Origin: Halonotius pteroides
GTDB lineage: Archaea; Halobacteriota; Halobacteria; Halobacteriales; Haloferacaceae
Reading direction: 5' to 3'
DNA: 64,000 nt
Assembly: GCF_003605635.1 (NCBI RefSeq)
Contig: NZ_QMDW01000008.1
Location: 1-64,000 of the forward strand
Below, one piece after another: positions 2,910 through 6,726 of this stretch (its first letter is position 1; each line of letters begins with the position of its first letter). Made by a program: the position numbers and the translations under genes. Under the pieces are notes generated by a model. It was given only the letters and a program-made list of their open reading frames with translations. It made no database searches and was not told the origin of the DNA.

Positions 2910-5636
2910 ATGAGTCTACGGTGGATCACGTCTCGTCGGGAGCAGCGGGCCGACAGCGGCATATTAGCCGGTAATGGATGGCGAATCGGTCTCTGTGTGG
3001 CCGCACTCGGGGTCGCGTGGCTTACGCGCGACCCGACAGCCAGCCTTACCACAGCTGGCCTGTTTAGCTTTATTCCGGCGTTTTGGCGGTCTGGACGCGA
3101 TGAGACAGCCGAGAATGCGACAACCAACGCTGAGTCAACAGACGCAGTCGCTGAGACAGAGCCAACAGCTACTGAGACTGAGACAGACCCAACGGCGGAG
3201 CCGATCGCTGATACCACCCTTACAATCGAGGAACAACCAGCGGGCGCGACCCCCGACGGCGGCGAGGTTGTGCCGAATCCGGACAACGACAGCGAGTCAG
3301 TCGACGAGTGGAAGGCGTTTTGTGAACAGCTGACCGACGCGATGGCCGAGGGTGCTGATGGGGATCTAACCGTTCGAGTCGATCCGGACGACGCACCGGC
3401 AGAGGCGGCCGAAACCGCCAAGATGTTCAACGAGTTGGTCGGTGAGTTCAGCGAGACGGTACAGACGGTTGATGACTTCAGCGATCAGGTAACCGGCGCA
3501 ACAAATCGTGTCACCGGGCGGGTCGAAGAGGTCAAATCCGCCAGCAAGGATATGAGCGGCGAGATCAACGCGATCGCTGACGATGCCAGCAAACAGAACA
3601 CCCAACTGGAGGAGCTCTCCGATGAGATCCGATCGTTGTCAGCAGCCACCCAGGAGGTCGCGTCCTCGGCCAGCGAGGTCGCCAAGGCGTCCGAACAGGC
3701 CGCCGAACGTGGTGAGAAAGGCCGAGAGTTGGGAACGGACGCCCTTGCCGAACTTGACGATATTGACACCCGGACGACCCGGATGCTTGAGGCCACCCAA
3801 GAACTCGACAACCGGATCGACGAGATCGAAGAGATCGCGGAGTTCATCGGCGATGTCGCCAGCCAGACGAACATCCTCGCGCTCAACGCTTCGATCGAGG
3901 CCGCCCGCGCGGGCGAGGCCGGCGAAGGGTTCGCCGTTGTTGCCGACGAGGTCAAAAGCCTCGCCGAGGACGCCGAGGAGGCCGCCGGCGACATCGAGAG
4001 CTCGGTGAGTACGATCCGCGAGCAGGCCGATACCACCGTCGAGGAGATGCACGAAACCCGCGACCGGATCGATTCGGGCGTCGATACGATCGAAAGCGCG
4101 GTCGAAAACTTCCAGCAGATCGCCGACGACATCGAGGAAACAAACGTCGGCGTCCAAGAGATCAGTAAGGCGACCGACCAGCAGGCCAACTCACTGCAGG
4201 AAGCGGCGGCGATGGTCGACGACGTGAGTGCGATCGCCGACGATACGGCTAACCGCACCGAAAACGCCGCGGCAGCCGCCCAACAGCAGACAACTGCCTT
4301 GGCTGAGGTGTCGACCGGTGCGACGACGCTGGATGAACGGAGTAGTTCGCTCAACCAGCTCACAACCAACTACGAGTTCGGCGGCGTGAGCTCACAGCTG
4401 GCCGCCGACAGCGACGTGACCGTCTTCGAGTTCTGGCACGCGATGGGCGGCGACAAGGGGCTGCTGTTGGAGAATCTGATCCGGGAGTTCGAGGAACAGG
4501 CCGACGGGATCCGGATCGAGGCGACCAACAAGGGCAGCTACCGTGGCAATCTGGAGTCGACGCTAAGTGCCGCCGAGCGTGGCGACACACCGACGCTGTC
4601 GCAGATCTACGAGATCGGCACCGCCAAAGCCATCGACAGCGGGGCTTTCGAGCCGGTCGAAAACGTGTTGCCGAGCCGAACGCAGCTGCGTAACTACCTC
4701 GATCCAGTCTTGAGCTACTACCGCACCAACGGCACACTGTACTCGATGCCGTTCAACTCCTCGGTGCCGATCTTGGCGATCAATGCGGACGCCTTCAGGG
4801 CAGCTGGGCTCGACCCGAATAATCCGCCTGAAACCTTCGCGGAGGTCACCGCCGCCGCCGAGGAGCTGGTCAACGCCGGCGTCACCGACACCGGGATCAC
4901 CTTCGCCAACTACGGCTGGTTCGTCGAGCAGTGGTTTGCCAGCGCGGGCCAAGAGATCGTCAACAAACAGAACGGTCGCGCGGGGACGGCCGACGAGGCC
5001 TTCTACGACAGCGAAGCCGGCGTCGAGCTCTACGACTGGTGGACCGACCTTGACAACCGCGGGCTGTACCACAATCCCGGGATCGAGGCCCGCGGAAAGG
5101 CCAAGGACGCCTTCCACGATGGCACCGCGGCGATGTTGGTTGGCTCCTCCTCGTCGTGTGGCTCGATCATCGAGGGCGCGGAGTTCGAGACGAATGTCAG
5201 CGGGATGCCCGCCGCGGGCGAGCGCGTCGGGCTCATCGTCGGCGGCGCGTCGCTGTGGGTCTCTGAGGATGCAACCCGCGACCAACAGGAAGCCGCCGGC
5301 GAGTTCCTTGCGTGGATGACCGCGCCGGAACAGCAGGCGCGCTGGCATCAAGAGACCGGCTACCTTCCGGTACACGAGCAGGGCGTCGAAAAGCTTCGCA
5401 ACGACGGCTGGTTCCGCGAAAACCCGGGCCACGAGGTTGGGATCCAGGAGTTGCTCGGCAGCCCAGACACGCCAGCAACCAACGGCGCGCGGATCGGGCC
5501 GTTCGATACGGTGCGGACGCTCGTCGCCGAGGCCTACGAGGATATCAAAACTGGCGACACCGAAGAAGAACTCCTCGCCCTCAGCGAAACGGTCGAACAA
5601 CAGCTTGCAAACTACGCCGCCGAACAAGGCCGATAA
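2910..5636 (+). CDS. Methyl-accepting transducer fused to a UgpB-like solute-binding domain
   Basis: 908 residues, start chosen from the TATA box (an ATG nine codons upstream lies within the box). Order: basic N-terminus; two hydrophobic segments (about residues 20-60); a long acidic linker; a HAMP-like helix; a full MCP coiled-coil domain whose hairpin tip carries [15 protein letters not shown] (about 321-335) and [14 protein letters not shown]; then, from about residue 505 to the end, a family-1 solute-binding domain closest to glycerol-3-phosphate-binding UgpB. UgpB hallmarks are [46 protein letters not shown] and [10 protein letters not shown]. The only membrane segments are at the N-terminus, so the binding domain should be cytoplasmic, on the same side as the signalling tip. 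No signal peptide or lipobox precedes it. The gene lies 1.5 kb from glpK, whose product is the likely ligand. Both domains are clear; the ligand and topology are inference. Confidence 0.85.
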
Positions 5637-5683: not shown

Positions 5684-5980
5684 ATGGAACGAACAGTAAC
5701 GGTTGTCCCAGAGGATGGACTGCACGCGCGACCGGCAACCACGTTCGTCGAAGCCGCGAGTAACTTCGACGCCGAGATCACGGTCGAGGCAGCCGCCGAC
5801 ACCAGACCACCCGTCGCCGCCGACAGCATTCTCGGTGTCACCGGGCTTGGTGTCCGCCGCGGCGACAAGGTAACGCTGCACGCTGAGGGGCGGGAGGCCG
5901 AACCCGCACTCGACGCGCTGGAAAACGTCATCACGACACCGGCTGGCGAATCCGATCTTGCCGGCGATGCCACCGCGTGA
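5684..5980 (+). CDS. ptsH: Phosphocarrier protein HPr
   Basis: 98 residues. HPr passes phosphate from enzyme I to PTS transporters or dihydroxyacetone kinase. The active-site motif GLHARPA carries the phosphorylated His at residue 15, and the second-half motif ADSILGVTGLGVRRGD matches the regulatory-site region, with Ser present. It begins 47 bases after the transducer gene. No enzyme I or PTS permease lies in the window. An HPr gene near glpK is, as I recall, seen in other haloarchaea, so a link to glycerol or dihydroxyacetone metabolism is plausible. Confidence 0.9.
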   Translation: MERTVTVVPEDGLHARPATTFVEAASNFDAEITVEAAADTRPPVAADSILGVTGLGVRRGDKVTLHAEGREAEPALDALENVITTPAGESDLAGDATA

Positions 5981-6051: not shown

Positions 6052-6726
6052 ATGGTACCGCCGCTGGCACTTGATATCGACGGCACATTGACGACTCGCA
6101 GCGACCAGATCGATCCACGGGTCTTTGAGGTGTTGCCGGCGTGGGAGGCACCGATCGTGGTGGCAACCGGCAAATCGTTTCCCTACCCGGTTGCGCTCTG
6201 TCACTTTTTGGGGATTCCCGAACAGGTTGTCGCCGAAAACGGCGGCGTTGTGTGTGCCGACGGGCAGGTCTCATTTCAGGGTGACCGCGACCGCGCCGAA
6301 CAGGCGATCGACGCGTTTCGAGACCGTGGCGGCGATCTCGGCTGGGATGCCGCCGATACAACAAACCGCTGGCGGGAGAGCGAACTTGCCGCCAACGTCG
6401 ACGCCGACGAGGAGTTGCTCCGGACGGTCGCCGAGGAGTTTGGGCTGGAGGTTGTCGACACCGGCTACGCCTATCATCTGAAGACGCCGGGTGTTGAGAA
6501 AGGCGATGGCTTGGCCGCTGTCGCGGATATACTCGGGCTGGACGCCGGGTCGTTCGTGGCGATCGGCGACAGCGAGAACGATGTCTCGCTGTTTGGGGCT
6601 GCCGGCGACTCCTATGCGGTTGGCAACGCCGACGAGCACGCAAAAGGGGCCGCCGAGACGGTGATCGACGGCGAATACTTCGAGGGAACGCTTGGCGTCC
6701 TTGAGTCGCTTCAGCCAGCAGAGTAG
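6052..6726 (+). CDS. Phosphoglycolate phosphatase, archaeal HAD type
   Basis: 224 residues of the HAD superfamily, subclass IIB, archaeal phosphoglycolate phosphatase branch. Motif I is ALDIDGTLT (nucleophile Asp8, Asp10), motif II is VVATGKS, and the motif IV metal site is GDSENDVSLF near 171-180. The cap domain lies between II and IV. It would dephosphorylate 2-phosphoglycolate in the cytoplasm. An in-frame extension to 5977 adds a basic, uncharacteristic N-terminus, and the TATA box just before 6052 supports the shorter form. The exact substrate is inferred from the family. Confidence 0.85.
   Translation: MVPPLALDIDGTLTTRSDQIDPRVFEVLPAWEAPIVVATGKSFPYPVALCHFLGIPEQVVAENGGVVCADGQVSFQGDRDRAEQAIDAFRDRGGDLGWDAADTTNRWRESELAANVDADEELLRTVAEEFGLEVVDTGYAYHLKTPGVEKGDGLAAVADILGLDAGSFVAIGDSENDVSLFGAAGDSYAVGNADEHAKGAAETVIDGEYFEGTLGVLESLQPAE

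Follow-up and report, generated by a model that had tools for sequence, protein, structure and literature searches.

A haloarchaeal chemotaxis transducer joined to a UgpB-type binding domain: a possible cytoplasmic reader of glycerol phosphate

What does a chemotaxis transducer sense when the domain at its C-terminal end is of the UgpB type, that of a binding protein serving ABC importers? The question is raised by a gene at positions 2910-5636 of the 64,000-nucleotide stretch of Halonotius pteroides DNA analysed here (contig NZ_QMDW01000008.1, positions 1 to 64,000; hereafter the window), in which all the features described below lie on the forward strand. The gene is a single uninterrupted frame of 908 amino acids plus stop, and both its domains and its orthologs support it as one unit. 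From the N-terminus, the protein presents one or more hydrophobic segments (residues 24-59, positions 2979-3086), a HAMP-like stretch with a GDLTVR motif (residues 140-178, positions 3327-3443) that gives a weak Pfam HAMP match (0.068) and whose GDL is almost invariant across the family, the MCP signalling domain with its conserved tip (residues 281-442, positions 3750-4235; Pfam MCPsignal, 1.6e-41), the tip residues being invariant in 25 orthologs, and the UgpB-like solute-binding domain (residues 499-908, positions 4404-5633), recognised by Pfam (SBP_bac_8 at residues 523-823, 3.4e-40), by structure search and in a predicted model. The initial annotation had claimed an MCP and a complete UgpB-type domain within one gene, and these two Pfam matches in one 908-codon frame bear it out. 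No recognised sensor domain other than SBP_bac_8 was found with Pfam, and the UgpB-type domain is the only plausible sensor of the protein.

The start at position 2910 is supported by a TATA-like element, TTTATAT (positions 2878-2884), approximately 28 nucleotides 5' of the ATG, the TTTAT of which is kept in three other Halonotius species (L013, L014 and L015); an alternative ATG at position 2883 sits inside the element. The Halonotius fusion gene thus probably has its own promoter and a leaderless transcript. A chance joining of genes or a local frameshift was ruled out by the orthologs, which comprise four other Halonotius-type records (H. aquaticus, H. roseus, H. terrestris and the uncultured archaeon A07HN63) and those of 63 further genomes of the order. 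In one related record (L016) a frame of 2,395 codons with low GC3 spans glpK through the fusion, and the N-terminus of that fusion was left out of use.

Examination of the C-terminal domain identified a type II binding-protein fold nearest to UgpB (best matches 6x84, 9lff and 4aq4). The closest solved structure by sequence was E. coli UgpB (4aq4, 7.9e-63), and the AlphaFold model of residues 499-908, built from 39 haloarchaeal sequences, reached a mean pLDDT of 95.2 and superposed on E. coli UgpB with TM values of 0.94 (6x84) and 0.89 (4aq4) and on Phaeobacter UgpB with glycerol-1-phosphate (9lff) with a TM of 0.88. The assignment of the domain to the UgpB type made from the sequence alone is hence upheld by fold prediction (TM 0.88-0.94 to UgpB structures). 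The full-length model was weaker (pLDDT 74.6), with a long helical MCP part and a separate binding domain visible in it, and at 237.4 bits the fusion did not reach the NCBIfam UgpB equivalog cut-off of 411 bits. Fold and eight of nine ligand residues are common to the fusion and UgpB (E. coli 4aq4, Phaeobacter 9lff); unlike UgpB, the fusion has no export signal and no adjoining ABC importer, has lost one tryptophan of the ligand clamp and is joined to an MCP.

On which side of the membrane the domain lies can be read from the topology of the family. By hydropathy, the stretch that joins the MCP part to the binding domain carries no hydrophobic segment in the window copy or in any fusion examined, and no signal peptide was seen in the fusions among the 40 loci compared. 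Most fusions have no strongly hydrophobic N-terminal segment and are wholly soluble; such a segment is limited, among the fusions examined, to Halonotius, L063/L064 and L071, so that the one in the window copy is a lineage-specific membrane anchor, either acquired later or kept as a minority state. The N-terminal membrane hairpin of the initial annotation stands in part: a single hydrophobic helix is clear (modelled at residues 23-40; peak Kyte-Doolittle value 1.41), the second, short stretch has no confident structure, and most relatives are without the hairpin. Stand-alone relatives are of a different kind, since twin-arginine pairs and lipoboxes, the signals of Tat lipoproteins, occur in 20 of 20 (19 pairs by a test of the first 25 residues, the twentieth lying just past residue 25), and an ABC ATPase gene lies within the 20 kb around 17 of 20 stand-alone loci versus 1 of 40 fusion loci. 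Because most fusions have no membrane segment and none has one between the domains, the UgpB-type domain is, as judged from the sequences, cytoplasmic, in agreement with the placement first proposed for it.

The fusion is found well beyond Halonotius. Searching with the binding domain in 392 genomes of the haloarchaeal order (Halobacteriales) identified it in 64, from three families, a count made by hand that includes two genomes with fusion copies in shorter frames; the other sampled genomes have stand-alone relatives only, mostly of 440-505 codons. The search of haloarchaeal genomes for the same fusion together with glpK, proposed when the gene was first noticed, thus gave 64 of 392, with glpK in every one of the 64. 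Of 78 binding domains placed in a maximum-likelihood tree, 45 were fused, and all 45 formed one clade (support 100/99), whose sister was the principal group of the secreted UgpB-like lipoproteins of haloarchaea (joint node 95/91), the deeper bacterial joins of this tree being unsure owing to long branches. According to this tree the fusion arose once. Plasmid records held only stand-alone binding proteins and no fusion over 80% of a Haloarcula-type query. A seeming bacterial fusion in Halolactibacillus (L029) was rejected, as its MCP gene and the nearby binding-protein gene are separate. In both Halolactibacillus loci (L028 and L029) the MCP gene immediately precedes the gene for an ABC binding protein and those for its permeases, possibly a pair for binding-protein chemotaxis.

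To what extent the ligand site survived in the fusions was examined by alignment with the UgpB proteins of Phaeobacter MED193 and E. coli. The ligand contacts of Phaeobacter UgpB are Tyr64, Glu88, Ser143, Trp188, Trp191, Ser266, Gly303, Tyr342 and Arg393 (PMC12718374), and the aligned codons of the window gene are Y544, E568, S618, N667, W670, S746, G779, Y818 and R869 (positions 4539-5516). Eight of these nine ligand residues are invariant in all 45 fusions examined, compared with 16% of invariant columns overall (hypergeometric probability 2.7e-6, 45 fusions). The residues of the phosphate site (Y544, S618, S746 and Y818) and those of the glycerol site (E568, G779 and R869) are all kept and invariant in the 45. 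The expectation that UgpB ligand residues would be present therefore holds for eight of the nine and fails at the two-tryptophan clamp, where W670 is retained and the first tryptophan (W188 of MED193) is replaced by N667, a position occupied by threonine in eight of the 45 fusions. Mutagenesis in a bacterial UgpB has shown that both clamp tryptophans matter, and the glycerophosphocholine binder of M. tuberculosis likewise misses the first one (PMC12718374); actinobacterial relatives of the fusion domain have leucine there, and they carry aspartate at the glycerol site where the fusions kept glutamate. It is chiefly because of the replaced tryptophan that we are cautious on the ligand: with asparagine at this position, it may be glycerol-1-phosphate or a glycerophosphodiester. 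That a marine UgpB binds glycerol-1-phosphate and glycerol-3-phosphate within three-fold of each other (PMC12718374) matters because archaea make both compounds. Five stand-alone haloarchaeal proteins (L118-L122) have serine for the glycerol-site glutamate and glutamine or serine for the arginine, which suggests an altered ligand; the UgpB site can therefore decay, and the fusions kept theirs.

The genes around the fusion tie it to glycerol. The window opens with the 3' end of glpK, for glycerol kinase (positions 3-428; Pfam FGGY_C), which is truncated by the contig start and 94% identical to the full glpK of another Halonotius species (L015), and the order that follows is a membrane protein, an Orc-like protein, the fusion, HPr and a HAD phosphatase. 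In L015 glpK is full and a divergent glpABC lies upstream; in Haloarcula-type loci the fusion is directly upstream of glpK, at approximately 130 nucleotides, with divergent glpABC on the other side. Counted by coordinates, the distance from the fusion to glpK is no more than 10 kb in some 28 of the 64 fusion genomes, where well under one genome of 64 would be expected by chance, an estimate that takes one to three glpK genes per 3-4 Mb genome and position alone and ignores relatedness. The glp-linked fusions occupy four parts of their tree and show at least three gene orders, so that the glycerol tie, initially drawn from a single glpK neighbour, proved stronger than that neighbour could make it. 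In 12 glp-linked genomes with 177 MCP matches, about 150 of them listed, the fusions were the only MCPs within 10 kb of a listed glpK among the matches listed. At the level of whole genomes, glpK was present in 64 of 64 fusion genomes versus 277 of 328 others (Fisher's exact test, P = 7e-5, relatedness ignored). The linkage is absent from the fusion locus in more than half of the fusion genomes, and the neighbourhoods of fusions lacking it showed no clear metabolic theme.

The machinery to which such a transducer would signal is also present. CheA was found in all 64 fusion genomes, that of the window included, versus 236 of 328 others (Fisher's exact test, P = 8e-9, relatedness ignored), and the genome of the window has 11 MCP genes, CheA and archaellin-family genes. 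This genome contains no other UgpB homolog at E <= 1e-15 and consequently no Ugp importer of that type. In the published comparison of Halonotius, motility and glycerol use go together in three of the four species tabulated, H. roseus having neither (PMC6719526); our data show that H. roseus (L014) retains an intact fusion gene.

In salt lakes a major carbon source is the glycerol released by the alga Dunaliella. Taking the results from domain structure, pocket conservation and gene linkage together, we think it reasonably probable that the fusion is a transducer reading the glycerol phosphate made by GlpK and biasing motility via CheA. Glycerol would enter the cell and be converted by GlpK to glycerol-3-phosphate; this compound, or glycerol phosphate generally, would close the binding domain, which has two lobes and follows the MCP hairpin at its C-terminal end, the closure would shift the activity of CheA through the MCP tip, and the altered CheA activity would bias the archaellum, the response being attraction. 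The cell would in this manner gauge glycerol by the amount of glycerol phosphate that it produces. The ligand, the coupling to CheA and the attractant response are parts of this scheme that we infer. The wider proposal, that the binding protein of an ABC importer was on one occasion taken into the cytoplasm to become the C-terminal sensor of an MCP, and that throughout the order it gauges the glycerol-3-phosphate of the cell itself, is put forward more tentatively.

Other explanations have to be weighed against this scheme. The same cytoplasmic transducer could have as its ligand glycerol-1-phosphate, a compound of archaeal lipid synthesis, or a glycerophosphodiester, and would then report lipid turnover or phosphate state. 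We consider this rather unlikely, even if the replaced clamp residue, the lack of the same tryptophan in the actinobacterial relatives as in the M. tuberculosis binder, the similar affinity of a marine UgpB for both phosphates (PMC12718374) and the absence of glp neighbours from most fusions agree with it, because linkage to glpK recurs in four parts of the tree and because the glycerol site of the fusions has glutamate in place of the actinobacterial aspartate. The same clamp loss, together with the rarity of solute-binding domains in the cytoplasm and an HPr gene only 47 nucleotides downstream, would agree with a domain that has given up small-molecule binding to act as a scaffold or as a docking site, with GlpK or HPr as conceivable partners; this is improbable, since a scaffold has no need of eight ligand residues kept invariant in 45 divergent proteins and the adjacency to HPr is confined to Halonotius-type loci.

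The remaining two explanations concern where the protein senses and what it controls. Signalling to gene expression rather than to motility, whether via CheA or by the fusion alone, would accommodate the clustering of the gene with metabolic genes and a putative regulator, and the intact copy kept by H. roseus, a species described as non-motile; the occurrence of CheA in every fusion genome and the conservation of the signalling tip speak against it, and we think it very improbable. An external binding domain that senses glycerophosphate outside the cell, as in classical binding-protein chemotaxis, would agree with the export of every characterised UgpB protein and with the N-terminal hydrophobic segment of the window copy, yet the stretch from the MCP to the binding domain has no hydrophobic segment, most orthologs have neither signal nor membrane segment, and the MCP tip has to face CheA in the cytoplasm. 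This possibility was rejected on topology, and we see hardly any chance of it.

The proposed reader of glycerol phosphate resembles several known receptors without matching any of them. Car (Htr11) of Halobacterium salinarum is a cytoplasmic transducer with no membrane segment for which arginine is an attractant (PMC3579733), and like the fusion it would represent haloarchaeal cytoplasmic sensing of a catabolic substrate by its internal level; it differs in its ligand and in its lack of a membrane segment, the window fusion having one at its N-terminus, and the passages of that source dealing with Car describe no solute-binding domain. A solute-binding protein also informs a haloarchaeal MCP in the BasB/BasT and CosB/CosT pairs of H. 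salinarum, where, in the account given there, a separate and putatively periplasmic binding protein copurified with a membrane transducer (PMC3579733), unlike the fusion, whose binding domain is covalently attached at the C-terminus, intracellular and part of a single polypeptide. Chemoreceptors of the PacP family of plant-associated bacteria also recognise glycerol-3-phosphate, but through a periplasmic sCache domain that senses the external compound (PMC12395807). SBP_bac is among the sensor domains that a 2022 census reports for archaeal chemoreceptors, and cytoplasmic receptors whose sensor domain is C-terminal are described there too (PMC9680633); its passages, as far as searched, name neither UgpB nor a ligand, a tie to glycerol or an origin, and some proteins of the fusion family may already be counted there by domain. 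In the literature searched, which covers few subscription journals, we came across neither a report of a UgpB-type receptor in the cytoplasm nor the UgpB identity, single origin, pocket conservation or glycerol linkage of the fusion, and no haloarchaeal glycerol sensor for taxis in that on haloarchaeal chemotaxis and glycerol. If our reading is true, glycerol taxis in haloarchaea acquires a defined receptor with a defined pocket, cells follow glycerol through the first product of its catabolism and not outside the cell, and the binding protein of an importer can become an internal metabolite gauge; the fusion would then also offer a natural starting point for an intracellular reporter of glycerol phosphate.

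Several neighbouring genes and sites deserve description. The membrane protein 2 nucleotides after glpK (positions 431-1426) gave no Pfam or NCBIfam match; all 16 genomes searched have a homolog approximately 45-120 nucleotides from glpK, which makes it a candidate glycerol facilitator. The gene at positions 1616-2776 encodes, by its domain matches, an Orc1/Cdc6-like AAA+ protein with a winged helix. Each of 16 genomes, drawn from six families and picked without the fusion, has exactly one homolog (E <= 1e-20), in every case at about 5 kb or less from glpK; the product looks like a dedicated protein of the glycerol cluster rather than a replication initiator, perhaps a regulator derived from Orc1/Cdc6. 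Downstream of the fusion are the HPr phosphocarrier (positions 5684-5980; Pfam PTS-HPr, 1.1e-26) and a HAD phosphatase resembling phosphoglycolate phosphatase by its domain matches (positions 6052-6726), which is also near the fusion in relatives.

The glpK leader contains an inverted repeat, TTTAC...GTAAA, around a GC-rich stem and before the GGAG ribosome-binding site (L077:9331-9463 and L081:10687-10818, and also in L083, L084, L090, L015, L063, L064 and L071). The two arms of the stem seem to change together between species, and the repeat is a candidate operator or RNA element. The fusion gene of Halonotius has its own promoter-like element and is without the TTTAC...GTAAA found before glpK, so that its co-regulation with glpK is not evident. 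Just 5' of the Haloarcula-type fusion gene, L077, L078 and L079 carry the inverted repeat GTTGGCCGTTCGGCCAAC or one closely similar to it.
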